From assembly GCA_036268875.1 (NCBI GenBank), contig DATATI010000010.1:1-64000 (forward strand): 64,000 nucleotides of DNA, given 5' to 3'. Shown piece by piece: positions 1,320-64,000 of the stretch. This DNA is from Polyangia bacterium. GTDB taxonomy: Bacteria > Myxococcota_A > Polyangia > Fen-1088. Every line of letters begins with the position of its first letter. Position 1 is the stretch's first letter. Made by a program: the position numbers and the translations under genes. The notes under the pieces are model-generated. The model was given only the letters and a program-made list of their open reading frames with translations, was not told the origin of the DNA and ran no database searches.

Positions 1320-1383
1320 TCGGGACCCTGGGAGGGTCCCGCGCCCCCCGCGATGAGTCCCGCCGGGCAAAGCCCGCCGGCAC
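1320..1383 (-). repeat. Two-hairpin intergenic element, copy 1 (after groES)
   Basis: Directly after the groES stop is a perfect 8-bp hairpin, GGGACCCT/AGGGTCCC with a GGG loop (1322-1340), and then a second stem built on GGGC-AAA-GCCC (about 1363-1380). No T-run follows either stem, so this is not a standard intrinsic terminator. Read on the minus strand, the order GGGCTTTGCCC, GC-rich spacer, variable hairpin matches the copies after recQ, the TSP3-OmpA gene and frr. Relative to its host gene, orientation is the same in all four copies. Confidence 0.65.
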
Positions 1384-1411
1384 TCGACGCGATCAACCTT
1401 CTAAGTTTTGA

Positions 1412-36757: not shown

Positions 36758-39061
36758 CTAATCGCCGCCGGGGTTGTAGAAGCCGGGGAGGCGGGGGCCG
36801 CGGTCACGGTTGCGGTCGCCGCCGCCTTCGCGTCCCTGACGGTTGCGATCGCGACCCCGGCGCCGGCGCCGGTTGCGGCCGCCGCCATCGCCTGGCGCAC
36901 CACCGCCGTTGTTGCCGCCGCCATTGTTGCCACCGCCGTTGCCGCGGCCGTTGTGGCCTTGAGCGTTCTGCGGGCGGTAATTGTTGTTGTGACCACCACC
37001 GGCCGGTTGTTGCTGCGGGCGCAGGGTGGCCATCATCGGCAAAGCGACGATTGGCGACGGTCGCCAATCAACGTACGGTCGAATGTTGGCGTCGCGCACG
37101 GTTGCCCACCCGCCGTCTATGTCGCCGCTGCCATCGCCGGGCGGCAAGGCCACGACACCGGCGCCGTCTTCGGCGGCTTGCTGATTGGCCTCCGCCAGCC
37201 AGGCGGCCTGGTCGTCGATGACGGCATCGCCGGGCATCTCGCGTCCGGCGTCGGGGAGATCATCCCAGATCTTTTCGTCGAAGACGCCAACCGTTTCGCC
37301 GTCGGCGCTGTCCGCCACCACGTATGGGGGCAGGGGCGGCAGAACGTCAGACGGAATTGGCGTCTCGAATACCACCACCGGCGGTGCGACGGCGGGACGG
37401 GCGGCGCCCGGTCCTGGCAGACCGACGCGCACGTCGGCACCGCCGCTGCCGCGCCGCCGCCGCCGCCGCGGGCGAGCATGGAAGTCGGTGGCGGCATGTA
37501 GACCGTGGCGCTCGTCGGCTGACCCGGGATCGAACACCTCGCTGTCGAGACCCGCGCACGAATCGCACAGGCCGCACTTGTCGCCTTCCGGCTCGCCGAA
37601 ATAGGCGCGCATCATCTGCACGCGGCAGCGTTGCGTGTTCATGTACGCAAGCAGCGCCGCCAGCCGCCGGCGATCGGAGATGCGCCGCGCTTCGAACACC
37701 GACGCCGCCTTGTCGATCCGCTCGCGCGTAGGTTTGGGCTCGACGCCTTCCCAGCGCGCCGCCTTCACTTCTTTGGCGACGCCCATCGCTTCCAGCACCG
37801 ACAGAATGACCCGCACCCGTCTTTCAGGCAGCGCCATCGACAGGGCCAGATCACGCACCGAAACTTCTTTGCCTTCGTCGCTCCAGGCGTAAAGACCTTC
37901 CGCCACCATGCGTGCCTGCACTTTGGTCGGGTGCGCCTCTTTCAAGAAGTGTTCTTGAATAGCGATGTCGTCGGGCTGAAACAGCAGGACGCAACGCGCC
38001 GGTTTGCCGTCGCGGCCGGCGCGTCCGGCTTCCTGCACATAGGATTCGGGCGAACCAGGCATTTGATAGTGGATGATGTAACGAATGTCTGGCTTGTCGA
38101 CGCCCAGGCCGAAGGCGTTAGTGGCCAGCATCACCACTTTGCGGCCGGCTTGCATGAAAGACGCTTGCGCCTTCTCGCGCTCGTCGGTGGTCATCTTGCC
38201 GTTGTACCGTTCGACGGGGATCTTGCCGTGGCGCAAAGCCACGTACAGATCGTCAACGGCGCGCACCGTGGCGCAGTAAACAATTCCTGGGCGGCGCAGA
38301 CGCTGGATCAATTTTCCGAGCTGGCGCAGCTTGTCCGCTTCGCCCGCGACTTTTCGCACGTCGAAGGCCAGATTCGGACGATGGAACGAGATGCGACAGA
38401 CCTTGGGGTCGCGCATGCCCAGCTGGACCAGCACGTCGTCGCCGATGGCGGGCGTGGCCGTGGCGGTCAGGCCCAGGATGGGCGGCCGACCCAGAACCTG
38501 GGCCGCACGCCGCAGGCCCAAATAAGACGGTCGAAAGTCATGGCCCCACTGTGAAACGCAGTGCGCTTCGTCGACACAGAAAAGCGAGAACTTCACGCCC
38601 GCCAGCGCGTCTTGCACGGTGGGCGAATTGATCGACTCTGGGGTGATCAGCACCAGCTTGATGGCGCCTTCGCGCACGGCCTGAAGATCGGCGGCGCGTT
38701 CCTTGGCGGTGCGGGTCGAATCGATGCGCGCCACCGGAACGCCGGCGGCTTTCAATTTGCCGACTTGATCTTCAATCAACGCCAGCAGCGGTGAGACGAC
38801 AATGGTCGGCCCGTCCATCACCAATGCCGGCAGTTGGTACGTCAGAGATTTGCCACTGCCGGTGGGCATGATGGCCAGCGTGTCCCGGCCGGCCAGCACC
38901 GATTCCATGATCTCTGCTTGGCCGGGGCGCAACCCGCGCAGCTTGAAAACCTCGCGCAGCTTGACCAGCGCACGCTGTAAAGCAGGCGACGGAGGTGGGG
39001 TGGGCTCAGTGGGGGTGATCACCGGCACATGGTCCGTCGCTGACGGAACCGCGCCGGACAC
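36758..39061 (-). CDS. recQ: ATP-dependent DNA helicase RecQ with Gly/Asn/Arg-rich tail
   Basis: A 767-residue RecQ-family 3'-5' helicase. Visible are LRPGQAEIMESVLAGRDT, Walker A PTGSGKS (about 64), DEAH in CVDEAHCVSQWGHDF, TATATP, QEAGRAGRDG and the Zn region CRVQMMRAYF...CGLCDSC. The final ~200 residues replace the normal HRDC domain with disordered sequence ending in (GGN)n, RRRRRGRDR and EGGGDRNRDRG, reminiscent of RNA-binding tails. A GTG at 39061 is used, but the upstream frame stays open to 39314, so the N-terminus could be longer. A two-hairpin element follows the stop. Confidence 0.93.
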   Translation of the reverse strand: MSGAVPSATDHVPVITPTEPTPPPSPALQRALVKLREVFKLRGLRPGQAEIMESVLAGRDTLAIMPTGSGKSLTYQLPALVMDGPTIVVSPLLALIEDQVGKLKAAGVPVARIDSTRTAKERAADLQAVREGAIKLVLITPESINSPTVQDALAGVKFSLFCVDEAHCVSQWGHDFRPSYLGLRRAAQVLGRPPILGLTATATPAIGDDVLVQLGMRDPKVCRISFHRPNLAFDVRKVAGEADKLRQLGKLIQRLRRPGIVYCATVRAVDDLYVALRHGKIPVERYNGKMTTDEREKAQASFMQAGRKVVMLATNAFGLGVDKPDIRYIIHYQMPGSPESYVQEAGRAGRDGKPARCVLLFQPDDIAIQEHFLKEAHPTKVQARMVAEGLYAWSDEGKEVSVRDLALSMALPERRVRVILSVLEAMGVAKEVKAARWEGVEPKPTRERIDKAASVFEARRISDRRRLAALLAYMNTQRCRVQMMRAYFGEPEGDKCGLCDSCAGLDSEVFDPGSADERHGLHAATDFHARPRRRRRRGSGGADVRVGLPGPGAARPAVAPPVVVFETPIPSDVLPPLPPYVVADSADGETVGVFDEKIWDDLPDAGREMPGDAVIDDQAAWLAEANQQAAEDGAGVVALPPGDGSGDIDGGWATVRDANIRPYVDWRPSPIVALPMMATLRPQQQPAGGGHNNNYRPQNAQGHNGRGNGGGNNGGGNNGGGAPGDGGGRNRRRRRGRDRNRQGREGGGDRNRDRGPRLPGFYNPGGD

Positions 39062-58790: not shown

Positions 58791-58957
58791 GCCCGATTAC
58801 GAATTTTCCCCGAGAATTCCCCCCTCGGCAATTCCCTAAATCTATTCCTACCTTGCCCCACCCGTTCACCTTCTCCCCGTCCCATTAACGTACCCTCAGC
58901 CGCCCAATTTCGCTCAATAACACCGCGACGTCCGTCCGACGCCGCCGCTATTCCCAT

Positions 58958-59061
58958 TCAGGAGGCCGGGCTCTGCCCGGCCGGCCCACCTTGCGCGAGC
59001 GATCCGTTGGGGGGCGACGTGGGGGGATTTAATTCCCCCACGCAGCGAGCGCAGCGAGCGA
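58958..59061 (-). repeat. Two-hairpin intergenic element, copy 3 (after the TSP3-OmpA gene)
   Basis: The clearest copy. Plus-strand order: TCAGGAG, then hairpin 1 GGCCGGGC-TCT-GCCCGGCC (58964-58982, perfect), CGGCCCACCTTGCGCGAGC, GTTGGGGGGCGACG, then hairpin 2 CGTGGGGG/CCCCCACG around an AT-rich GATTTAATT loop (59018-59042), then GCAGCGAGCGCAGCGAGCG up to the OmpA stop. It fills the gap between dnaG's promoter region and the stop at 59062. It is compared with copies at 1320, 36661 and 63657. Confidence 0.75.
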
Positions 59062-60936
59062 TCACTGCCCCTCGCCGCCCTTCAGCTCGGCTTCATCGGC
59101 GCGTTTGAGGATGATGAACTCGACGCGTCGGTTCTTGCTCCAGCAGTCCTCGTTGTGTTGGGTGCAGACCGGCTTGGTCTCGCCGTAGCCGTGTTTGCGC
59201 AGGCGGCTCGGTTCGACGCCGCGTTCGACCAGCGCTTGCTTGACCGACGCGGTTCGGCCTTCGGTGAGCTCCAGATTGTGCTCGTCGTTGCCGCGCTCGT
59301 CGGCGTGGCCTTGCACTTCCAGCAGCAACAACTGCGGGTTGCCTTTGATCGTCGCCGCGATCGCATCCAGCAGCGGGAACGAGACCGGCTTGATGTCGGT
59401 CTTGTCGGTCTCGAAGTAGATCTTGTCCAGGATCTCCAGCTTGCCGCGCCTGACGATCACGCGCCCCTTGTCCGGGCAGCCGTCGTCGTCCTGGAAGCCG
59501 TTGTAAGTCTCCGGCTCGTTCGGGCACTTGTCGTTCTTGTCCAGGATGCGGTCTTTGTCGTTGTCGGGATCCGGGCAGCCGTCTTGATCCTCGAAGCCGT
59601 CTTTGTCTTCCGGATCGTCGGGGCATTTGTCGACGTCGTCGGGGATGCCGTCGCCGTCGCGATCGAAGGTGGTTGAATCGGGGCAACCGTCCGCGTCTTG
59701 GAAGCCGTTCTTGGTCTCCGGCTCGTTCGGGCACTTGTCGTCGACGTCCAGGATGCCGTCGTGATCGTTATCGGGCTCGGGGCAGCCGTCCTCGTCTTCG
59801 AAGTCGTCAAAGTCTTCGGGATCGTCGGGACACTTGTCGACGTCGTCCTTGTACCCGTCGCCGTCGCGGTCGCCGATCGACGGTTCGAAGATCATGCCGA
59901 TGAAGGCGCGCGGTGCGCCGCCGCCGTAACCGTTGGCCACTCGCCAGCCACCGCCCAGCTCGAAGAACGAGTTGTGGGCCAGGTACAGCTTGATGCCGGC
60001 GATGGCTTCCGCCGTCGGGTTGAGATTGCTCTGGGTGCCGTCGGCGGCGATCTTCTTGCTGCCCAGGCCGTAAAAGCCGTAGATCTCGCCCACCACGTCG
60101 AACTTCTGCGGGACGATGCCGTACGAGATGCCGAAGCCGCCGACCACTTCGTTCTTGGCCAGGATGCCCTGCTGGGTGTTGGTCAGCATCATCCCGCTGG
60201 GGGTGAACATCCGCGGCGCGGTGCCGGTGGTGCCATCGTCGACGAAAGTGGTGCTGGGGCGGATGCGCATGCCCGCGTTGATGGTGGTGCGGAAACGACC
60301 GAGGTAACCGGTCTCGGTATCGGCGATGACCGTCGGCTGGAAGATCAGCTTCCCTTCGCCCATGAAGGCGTTCTTGTCACCGGTGGGCAGGACCAGGCTG
60401 GGAATGATGGCGATGCCGAATCCGGTGCGGGTGGCGTTCAGCAGCCGAATCTTCGGGTGCAGCGTGATGTCGCCCAGGCCCTGGCGGGTGAATCCATAGT
60501 CGGTGGTGGCGGCGCCGGCACCGCCGGGGTTGGACGGCTCGCCCTTGCCGGACAACACGGTCATCGGCACGACCACGCCCAGCTCGAAGCCAAAATGCGC
60601 CAGCTTGACGAAGCCGACCGCGGCTTGCAGCGACGGCGTCACCAGGTTCGTCACCACAAAACCGTTTTGCTGGGGTGGCGTCCCTAGCTTCATCGTGCCG
60701 TCAAACTGCAGCGGCCGGCGCGCATAGGTGGTCACCAGGCCGAACGAAAAATCCCACTGACCCAGGACGCCCGATGAATTGAGGGTGATGAAACCCTTCG
60801 AATCCATGGCCGGGCGAAACATCTGCAGGTCCAGCGGCGCGCTGTTGATCTGCGCCTCGGCCGGCGCAGCGAGGCCGAATGCTGCGACCGCCGACACGAC
60901 GATCGACATGAAAATCCGGCTGGGGCGAACCGACAT
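59062..60936 (-). CDS. Outer-membrane OmpA protein with barrel and thrombospondin type 3 repeats
   Basis: A 624-residue envelope protein. After a signal peptide (SIVVSAVAAFGLAAPAEA) come barrel-like strands (about residues 20-350), then calcium-binding TSP3 repeats (about 353-488: DRDGDGYKDDVDKCPDDPED and DNDHDGILDVDDKCPNEPE patterns), then an OmpA peptidoglycan-binding domain (LEVQGHADERGNDEHNLELTEGRTASV; HGYGETKP; NRRVEFIIL). It should link the outer membrane to the cell wall. The ATG at 60936 has GGAGG about seven bases upstream; an earlier in-frame start is rejected. A near-consensus promoter lies 75-100 bases upstream. Confidence 0.94.
   Translation of the reverse strand: MSVRPSRIFMSIVVSAVAAFGLAAPAEAQINSAPLDLQMFRPAMDSKGFITLNSSGVLGQWDFSFGLVTTYARRPLQFDGTMKLGTPPQQNGFVVTNLVTPSLQAAVGFVKLAHFGFELGVVVPMTVLSGKGEPSNPGGAGAATTDYGFTRQGLGDITLHPKIRLLNATRTGFGIAIIPSLVLPTGDKNAFMGEGKLIFQPTVIADTETGYLGRFRTTINAGMRIRPSTTFVDDGTTGTAPRMFTPSGMMLTNTQQGILAKNEVVGGFGISYGIVPQKFDVVGEIYGFYGLGSKKIAADGTQSNLNPTAEAIAGIKLYLAHNSFFELGGGWRVANGYGGGAPRAFIGMIFEPSIGDRDGDGYKDDVDKCPDDPEDFDDFEDEDGCPEPDNDHDGILDVDDKCPNEPETKNGFQDADGCPDSTTFDRDGDGIPDDVDKCPDDPEDKDGFEDQDGCPDPDNDKDRILDKNDKCPNEPETYNGFQDDDGCPDKGRVIVRRGKLEILDKIYFETDKTDIKPVSFPLLDAIAATIKGNPQLLLLEVQGHADERGNDEHNLELTEGRTASVKQALVERGVEPSRLRKHGYGETKPVCTQHNEDCWSKNRRVEFIILKRADEAELKGGEGQ
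59471..59876 (-). repeat. TSP3 repeat coding region
   Basis: Four to five imperfect repeats of about 25-35 codons encode Asp-rich loops DxDxDGxxDxxDxCP alternating with CPxxPE and DGC segments. Each holds calcium-ligand aspartates. At DNA level this gives recurring GGGCAGCCGTCnTC and GGGCAnTTGTCG stretches, which resemble tandem repeats but are codon-driven. Confidence 0.85.
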
Positions 60937-61006
60937 CGAGACCTCCGTGAGCCTTGAGCGCAAGTCGTGAAGAGTTCCGCCAAATTAGTCGGAAAATCGA
61001 CGGACA

Positions 61007-62442: not shown

Positions 62443-63243
62443 TTGCCTGGGGAGAGGCAACTATGTTTTCAGGCCGCCGGCGTGGTGGGAAATCTCGTTC
62501 AAGAATCGGGCGTCAATCCCGCCATCTCGCAGTCGAGCGGCGGACCGGGGCGCGGCATTGCCCAGTGGTCGGCAGGCACGCGCTGGGACACCACCAGGGG
62601 CGACAACCTGGTGGCGTTCGCGGCGACGGAAGGCCTGCCGACGAATTCTTTGAGGGTGCAGCTGGATTTCATCTGGTTCGAGCTGCAGACGTTCCCGGCC
62701 TACGGCTTGGCCAAGCTGCGCGTGACCACCAACGTCAGCGACGCCAGCATCGAGTTCGAACACGATTACGAGGGCTGCGTCGACGCGAACTTTCCGGTCT
62801 GCGAGCAAGCCATGCGCATCGTGTACTCGATGCAGGAGCTGAAATCGTACGGGAACGATCCCGTGATGCTCGACGCGGGCGTTTCCTTCGACGCTGCGGG
62901 CGCCGCTGATGTCAGGGTGGCGTCCGACAGCGGCGCGTCCGATCACGGCGGAACGACCAACGAAGACACCGCGTTCGACATCGTCGCCGTGGTCGACACG
63001 GCCGCGCCCGTCGACACCACGCCGCCGCCGCCAGCCGTCGACGCCGGCGCGCCGTCGCCGGTCGACTCGGGGGCGGTCGTCGATACGAGGAAAATGGGCA
63101 GCGCGCCGGCCAGCGCCACGTCCAGCGGCGGTTGCGCGCTGACGTCTGGCCTTTCGCCCGAAGGCGCGGGGAGCGGTGGCGTCTTGCTGGCGATCGCCTT
63201 CGCGCTCAGCCTGGTGGCGTCGCGGCGGCGGCCACGCCGGTAG
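62443..63243 (+). CDS. Phage tail-tip-lysozyme-domain protein with MYXO-CTERM tail, N-terminally truncated
   Basis: A 266-residue frame (TTG start uncertain). Residues about 10-130 match the phage tail tip lysozyme family: AAGVVGNLVQESGVNPAISQ with the catalytic Glu of QES, and PGRGIAQWSAGTRWD; family members cut peptidoglycan. A Thr/Ala/Pro/Asp linker follows and then a sorting tail: SGGCALTSG, hydrophobic GGVLLAIAFALSLVAS and terminal RRRPRR, i.e. MYXO-CTERM. No signal peptide is encoded and the first lysozyme helix is missing, suggesting 5' deletion or pseudogenisation. The last 38 bases overlap the opposite LTD gene. Confidence 0.75.
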   Translation: MPGERQLCFQAAGVVGNLVQESGVNPAISQSSGGPGRGIAQWSAGTRWDTTRGDNLVAFAATEGLPTNSLRVQLDFIWFELQTFPAYGLAKLRVTTNVSDASIEFEHDYEGCVDANFPVCEQAMRIVYSMQELKSYGNDPVMLDAGVSFDAAGAADVRVASDSGASDHGGTTNEDTAFDIVAVVDTAAPVDTTPPPPAVDAGAPSPVDSGAVVDTRKMGSAPASATSSGGCALTSGLSPEGAGSGGVLLAIAFALSLVASRRRPRR

Positions 63244-63616
63244 CCGCTTCGGGGTCGAACGTCAGGCGCGAGACCTCGAACTGATTTTTGCACAGCCGGA
63301 TGATCGTGCCTTCGCCGGCCAGCAGCGGTTCGCGCTGCAAGAGGTGATAGGTGCGCAGGCCGTCGCGCGTGGGCGGCTCGCCGTGGGCTTTTTTCCCCGG
63401 CATGCCGCTGACCACGATGATCTTCTCTCCCGGCTGCAGCATGAAACCGGGATCGATGGTTCCCAGCAGCGATCCGCGCTTGCCTTTGCGGGCGGCGATC
63501 ACCTGCAAGCCGCCGGTGGTGACGGCGGTGGGCCCGGTATTCTCCAGGACAAACCACTCCTCGTTGATCTTCTTGCGGTCCGCCGTCGCATGCGCTTCAC
63601 GAAAAATCAGAGCCAT
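63206..63616 (-). CDS. Lamin-tail-domain protein
   Basis: A 136-residue protein consisting of one lamin tail (LTD) Ig-like domain: NEEWFVLENTGPTAVTTGGLQVIA, FMLQPGEKIIVVSG and EGTIIRLCKNQFE. There is no signal peptide, so a cytosolic scaffold or nucleic-acid-associated role is possible, but bacterial LTDs are mostly extracytoplasmic, so this is unclear. AGAGGAC lies about six bases before the ATG. It is convergent with the lysozyme gene (38 bp overlap) and precedes the frr repeat element. Confidence 0.8.
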   Translation of the reverse strand: MALIFREAHATADRKKINEEWFVLENTGPTAVTTGGLQVIAARKGKRGSLLGTIDPGFMLQPGEKIIVVSGMPGKKAHGEPPTRDGLRTYHLLQREPLLAGEGTIIRLCKNQFEVSRLTFDPEAATGVAAAATPPG

Positions 63617-63656
63617 TAACAGTCCTCTTTCCGTTCCGTGTCTTAAGGCCTCGCCG

Positions 63657-63740
63657 TCCAGTCAGGAGCGTGGGCTTTGCCCGCGCGGCCCACCTTGCGG
63701 AGACGGGGTGGGCAGGCGGGAGGGTCTAACCCTCCTGCCC
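63657..63740 (-). repeat. Two-hairpin intergenic element, copy 4 (after frr)
   Basis: The gap between LTD gene and frr is almost wholly this element: GTCAGGAG, hairpin 1 GCGTGGGC-TTT-GCCCGCGC (63668-63686, one G-U pair), CGGCCCACCTTGCGGAGAC, and hairpin 2 built on GGAGGGT-CTA-ACCCTCC (63719-63735) extended by GGGCA/TGCCC, ending at the frr stop. Loop and stem bases differ from copy 3, yet pairing is kept. No T-run is present on the minus strand. Confidence 0.7.
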
Positions 63741-64000
63741 TCAGACTTCGAGAATCTCCGCCTCTTTTTTTGCGACGATTTCGTCGATCTTGGTGACCGC
63801 CTTGTCCGTGGTGTCCTGGACGGTCTTGAGACCCTTGCGCTCGTCGTCTTCGGTGATGGTTCCGTCTTTGAGGAATTCCTTCAGCATCTCGTTGGCGTCG
63901 CGGCGGGCGCCGCGCAAGGCGACCTTGGCCTCCTCGGCCATCTTCTTGACCACCTTGACCAACTCTTGTCGGCGTTCTTGCGTCAACGCGGGCGAAGGCA
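63741..64000 (-). CDS. frr: Ribosome recycling factor, C-terminal part (5' end beyond window)
   Basis: Only the C-terminal ~86 residues lie in the window; the gene's start lies past base 64000. [38 protein letters not shown] and [19 protein letters not shown] are characteristic of RRF's three-helix bundle, which splits post-termination ribosomes with EF-G. There is no sign of damage. A two-hairpin element follows the stop. The in-frame TTG at 63986 is not the true start. Confidence 0.95.

Follow-up and report, generated by a model that had tools for sequence, protein, structure and literature searches.

Two-hairpin DNA elements dispersed just behind gene ends in a group of soil myxobacteria

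The window analysed here is a stretch of 64,000 nucleotides from a Myxococcota genome (a 6.15-Mb draft in 95 contigs). It raises the question of why hairpin pairs of similar layout stand behind unrelated genes, and whether they are mobile DNA, functional RNA or both. An initial annotation had placed such pairs after groES, recQ, an OmpA-domain gene and frr, and all four are present; Pfam assigns the upstream genes to Cpn10, RecQ zinc-binding/helicase, OmpA and RRF, respectively. They are short two-hairpin DNA elements that occur scattered across genomes of a single soil myxobacterial group, land just behind gene ends and probably shape how the RNA of the upstream gene ends. The features are listed below with scores from two covariance models: R1, based on alignment A1 of 15 type A and type B (A/B) copies, each read in the direction of the upstream gene, and R2, built from 38 type C copies.

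1320–1394, plus strand: type C element after groES (stop codon 1315–1317); R2 93 bits
36655–36755, minus strand: degenerate type A element after recQ (36758–39061, minus strand); R1 77 bits, E 2e-14
58952–59050, minus strand: type A element after the OmpA-domain gene; R1 108 bits, E 1e-21; included in alignment A1
58959–58964, minus strand: CTCCTG of the OmpA-site element
58964–58982, minus strand: hairpin H2 of the OmpA-site element, with the linker between it and H1
59020–59040, minus strand: hairpin H1 of the OmpA-site element
59041–59061, minus strand: interval filled by CGCTCGCT repeats at the OmpA site
59062–60963, minus strand: OmpA-domain gene (OmpA by Pfam), stop codon 59062–59064
63206–63616, minus strand: gene next after frr (MALIFREAHATADRKK...), from the list of open reading frames
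63656–63747, minus strand: type B element after frr (stop codon 63741–63743); R1 76 bits, E 3e-14

The layout proposed for the four copies is indeed common to all of them, but only the three minus-strand copies form one sequence family (A/B). The groES copy is not matched by R1 and belongs to a separate family, type C, of equal layout, so that a single family for all four was rejected. In the A/B unit the stop codon is followed, often after CGCTCGCT repeats, by H1 (GGGGGGATTAAATCCCCCC in type A and GGGAGGGCTGGGCCCTCCC in type B), a C-rich linker, CAAGGTGRGCC, H2 (for example GGCCGGGCAGAGCCCGGCC) and CTCCTG. The CTCCTGA described after H2 in three copies is upheld as far as CTCCTG, which is conserved, while the GGATGGAAATAGCGGCG that continues it is more weakly so. 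The type B linker contains a CCCACC that can pair with GGTGGG; this middle stem suits type B, yet across A/B only 67% of cells pair, and it is not claimed for type A. The A/B ends show a weak complementarity, CGC(T)CGCT with AGCGGCG, and at one locus (L018) the CGCTCGCT segment ahead of a type A element has lengthened to an extended series of CGCTCGCT and TCGCTGACG repeats. The type C unit consists of GGGACCC-TNNNA-GGGTCCC, the linker CCCCCCGCGATG, an H2 closed by CGCG/CGCG and the tail ACGCGATC; its ends, compared by eye, do not match as terminal inverted repeats. Folded against shuffled sequences, the 36.6-kb copy is no better than chance (z +0.43) and the other three range from z −2.1 to −3.1, with the groES copy at −3.07.

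Copies elsewhere in the genome had been predicted and were found. A DNA search with the 59-kb copy returned 16 places (E ≤ 1e-3, 75–100% identity) and R1 returned 23 A/B copies (E < 1e-3, best 1e-21), a similarity far beyond chance. Another genus (G003) has 29 matches to a divergent A/B relative of equal layout, and R1 gave one weak, chance-like match (G024) among 41 genomes of other families and no A/B match in 52 named loci. The groES copy as query matched at least nine places in its own genome and up to at least 48 per related genome, and R2 identified 19 type C copies in the genome carrying the window and at least 522 in 20 of the 144 genomes of the class, namely in 16 of the 18 family genomes and in four genomes of three other families; G002 and G006 gave no match to type C. 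The window copy behind groES is 95% identical to that behind groES of G007.

Type C also forms tandem arrays that repeat about every 80 nt (L270, L365, L367 and G001:C93:5540–5837); several of these lie at contig ends, so that assembly probably stops at such arrays and the copy numbers are too low. Partial type C copies in which one hairpin was lost as a block occur at L336 and L362 (H2 missing) and at L350 (H2 and tail only). At L286 and L281 the TGA stop codon of the upstream gene lies inside H1, so that the element supplies the stop codon, and at the orthologous L344 only a short remnant (CGGGATCCTGA) is left.

A further hairpin pair of equal layout and other sequence, with a branched H1 (CGGGGTGCGGCTCGCTGCCGC...), the linker TCCCCCTCGCG and H2, is found at L071 (after rnpB, G001), L208 (G001) and L207 (G007) and is possibly a fourth family. 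At L222 (G003:C297) a stop codon is directly followed by a tandem of two or three hairpin units that differ again in sequence type. There are two families and likely more, each a fixed unit of about 75–125 nt composed of H1, a C-rich linker and H2. Rfam covariance models at gathering score match nothing in the window and, in 12 loci, only tRNA and RNase P, none of it on the elements, in agreement with the earlier view that no named family fits.

The copies mostly begin 0–45 nt past a stop codon, with H1 only a few nucleotides past it in many cases, and some lie directly behind tRNAs and RNase P RNA. The description of the elements as sitting directly after stop codons is therefore right for most copies and too narrow as a rule: three A/B copies adjoin RNase P RNA, tRNA-Cys and tRNA-Met, and stop-codon specificity was rejected. 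With simple codon-usage gene calls, 15 of the 23 A/B copies fall between co-directional genes and seven between convergent genes, so that 22 of 23 stand behind a same-strand gene, tRNA or rnpB; one copy (L017) lies between divergent genes. The suspected bias to 3' ends is thereby borne out, as is the shared orientation relative to the upstream gene, which holds for all but one of the 23 copies and for every one of the 15 between co-directional genes. For type C, 45 copies were placed at loci of G001 and G007: 29 begin no more than 100 nt, and mostly 0–8 nt, from a same-strand stop codon, and a few of the 45 are reversed.

Such positions, right behind stop codons, tRNAs and rnpB, could be explained by ordinary, vertically inherited terminators that resemble one another only through the composition of GC-rich hairpins; the rnpB site, which is occupied in G007 as well and filled in two genera, would agree with this. 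However, the linker and tail, for which a terminator has no need, are 75–89% identical among A/B copies in unrelated places. In the aligned copies no U-tract follows H1 or H2, and H2 is succeeded by CTCCTG in A/B or by ACGCGATC in type C, although U-tract terminators exist in the same genomes. Empty sites in relatives, described below, contradict this origin, which is very improbable; only the terminator function in itself survives.

The absence of a U-tract counts against a termination role of H1 and H2. At L039 (G000:C79) a lone H1-like hairpin follows a stop codon and, about 70 nt further on, a strong hairpin is followed by eight T, so that classical terminators do exist in this genome. Clusters of hairpins near stop codons without a U-trail have been proposed as terminators from RNA-seq data (Gupta and Pal 2021, PMC8355165); like the present elements they have a pair of hairpins no more than 80 nt from the stop codon and need no U-trail, but they are single-site predictions without conserved sequence, whereas the present pair is a dispersed repeat.

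Related genomes contain both filled and empty sites. The A/B sites L021 and L033 are empty in relatives, the type C site at glnA holds an element in G001 and none in G007, the flanks of the two being alignable, and for four further type C pairs (L273, L294, L298 and L299) one species has the element and another lacks it. Two species carry elements of opposite orientation in one convergent gap (L275 versus L291/L339), an arrangement suggestive of separate insertions. Other type C sites are shared, the groES site by three species and several by G001 and G007. At nrdJ an element is present where G001 and G007 carry hairpins followed by a long T-run. The empty sites demonstrate, as far as genome comparison can, that copies were gained at new 3'-end sites, and together with the dispersed similar copies they point firmly to insertion as the way in which copies would arise.

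The frr site is empty in G001, G007 and G011, where the next gene begins a few nucleotides after the frr stop codon. In the window a type B element and a new leader separate frr from the next gene, and the GGAGG inside frr that precedes the next start codon of the sister genomes reads GAAG here. The loss of GGAGG together with the element and the new leader suggests that translational coupling has been broken in this genome (63206–63750, L080–L082). This separation of cistrons, and the proximity of H1 to the stop codon in many copies, would be expected if the hairpin stalled the ribosome or uncoupled the next cistron; in Escherichia coli, REPs located no more than 15 nt from a stop codon cause ribosomes to stall (PMC12306157). 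Copies behind tRNAs and rnpB cannot act on ribosomes, and an action in translation is very unlikely as the general explanation.

The general sort of element is already known, while the A/B and C families and their strict placement appear to be undescribed. RMX of Myxococcus xanthus is part of the background on repeats in Myxococcota, and a literature search turned up no paper on repeats of the present sort in this phylum. The MIRU of mycobacteria are, like these elements, short repeats at cistron junctions with one orientation and tandem arrays, but they are not known to be two-hairpin elements and are set apart by description. The nearest in size are the MITE-like SPRITE, CIR, RUP and ERIC (PMC10969869, PMC2229807). 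SPRITE of Streptococcus pneumoniae is a dispersed repeat with a sequence resembling a Rho-independent terminator and is grouped with MITEs; by description both it and the present elements are dispersed and terminator-like, but it comes from a different phylum and the present elements have no U-tract (PMC10969869). CIR, RUP and ERIC are dispersed and structured elements of near 110–127 nt, of which RUP is tied to an insertion sequence via terminal repeats, CIR moves by an unknown mechanism and ERIC acts on mRNA in one orientation; unlike the present elements, none is described there as bound to a position right after stop codons (PMC2229807).

REPs of the GTAG and CGTC superfamilies are single palindromes of 20–40 bp with a GTAG or CGTC tag, often in head-to-head dimers, and the GTAG types are associated with a RAYT (Di Nocera et al. 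2013, PMC3733652). The present elements resemble them in their many dispersed intergenic palindromic copies near 3' ends, their compensatory stem variants and the occurrence of several families per genome (PMC3733652). They differ in being hairpin pairs of 75–125 nt with a fixed orientation and no conserved tag; A/B copies end in CTCCTG, and GACG, the reverse of CGTC, is seen at the tail of only part of the type C copies. As two-hairpin units of this length without a GTAG or CGTC tag, they fall outside the REP definition.

A RAYT-type transposase (Y1_Tnp, PF01797), as anticipated for an element of this kind, is absent from the genome carrying the window and from several copy-rich relatives (absent from G000, G001, G007, G011 and G012), a further difference from GTAG REPs. 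Among the 18 family genomes, six have RAYT matches (G013 partly at E 6e-12), and the enzyme may be extinct or missed in draft genomes. No transposase (beyond RAYT, in the one interval examined) and no consistent target duplication were found for the elements. An autonomous element between half copies 2.6 kb apart (G007:C310) was considered and rejected, ordinary genes alone lying in between.

The elements could also be purely selfish, of REP/MITE type and with no role in RNA, their hairpins being seen as DNA by a trans-acting transposase and copies surviving at 3' ends only as these are the least harmful places. Empty sites and tandem arrays agree with this, as do the truncated copies L336 and L350, an excess of short direct repeats (4–6 nt, p = 0.003) around some type C copies, variable in length and confined to a minority, and the similar preference of REPs for the vicinity of 3' ends (PMC3733652). 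Tolerance alone, however, predicts no single orientation, contrary to the forward direction of all A/B copies in co-directional gaps; pairing is largely kept at orthologous sites; and RAYT is lacking from several copy-rich genomes. A purely selfish nature is possible but doubtful.

Stems had been proposed to survive by paired changes, and covariation is strong in each family, with 36 double-change cells for A/B (11.7 expected) and 74 for type C (23.2 expected). None of 500 shuffles reached the covariation score, and in both families the signal was lost when partners were slid. Because the copies are paralogues, covariation alone could reflect a constraint of mobility. Orthologous copies, at the level of sequence, are more telling on the pairing constraint. 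Of ten orthologous type C copies, nine are 86–100% identical and one is 82% identical, with the 40 nt that follow reaching only 53–88%, and the paired positions of the copies show ten double and three single pair-keeping changes and eight broken pairs; gene conversion could contribute to this kept pairing.

One type C linker base tracks a pair of H1, with C accompanying G-C 48 times, T accompanying A-T 22 times, T accompanying G-C twice and no other combination, counts in which some copies may appear twice since some loci overlap. Such tracking would allow the 5' arm of H1 to pair with either partner, and the same pattern would equally be expected from two old subfamilies. It is unlikely that the elements are a new mobile class that finds transcription-unit 3' ends through a dedicated mechanism, perhaps guided by RNA or by transcription, and that brings genes a portable 3'-end module whose H1 5' arm switches between its own 3' arm and the covarying C-run of the linker.

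The favoured reading, with a probability of roughly 60%, is that of non-autonomous REP/MITE-like palindromic elements gained behind 3' ends, with a hairpin pair that works as a 3'-end structure at the RNA level. The fixed H1–linker–H2 unit would insert, or be kept, just behind transcription units in one main orientation and would be transcribed at the start of the 3' UTR; there the two hairpins may stop or slow RNA polymerase without a U-tract, block 3'-to-5' exonucleases or do both. Protection against exonucleases is known for REPs. The alternative left by the initial annotation, a selected RNA or a mobile palindromic element at 3' ends, is supported by dispersed copies, 3' bias, covariation and empty sites. 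A role in RNA is favoured by the single orientation, the position behind both mRNAs and stable RNAs, the largely kept pairing and the element at nrdJ, where G001 and G007 have T-run hairpins, and from orientation, position and retained pairing we infer that the pair probably serves as a 3'-end structure. Several copies lie 39–90 nt ahead of a co-directional gene, which would be awkward for a strong terminator.

The filled and empty sites within one lineage would mean that 3'-end RNA structures can be gained as ready-made elements rather than stepwise. The same gene with and without an element offers a natural experiment for testing hairpins close to stop codons, and for these families of mobile palindromes no RAYT partner of the usual kind was found.
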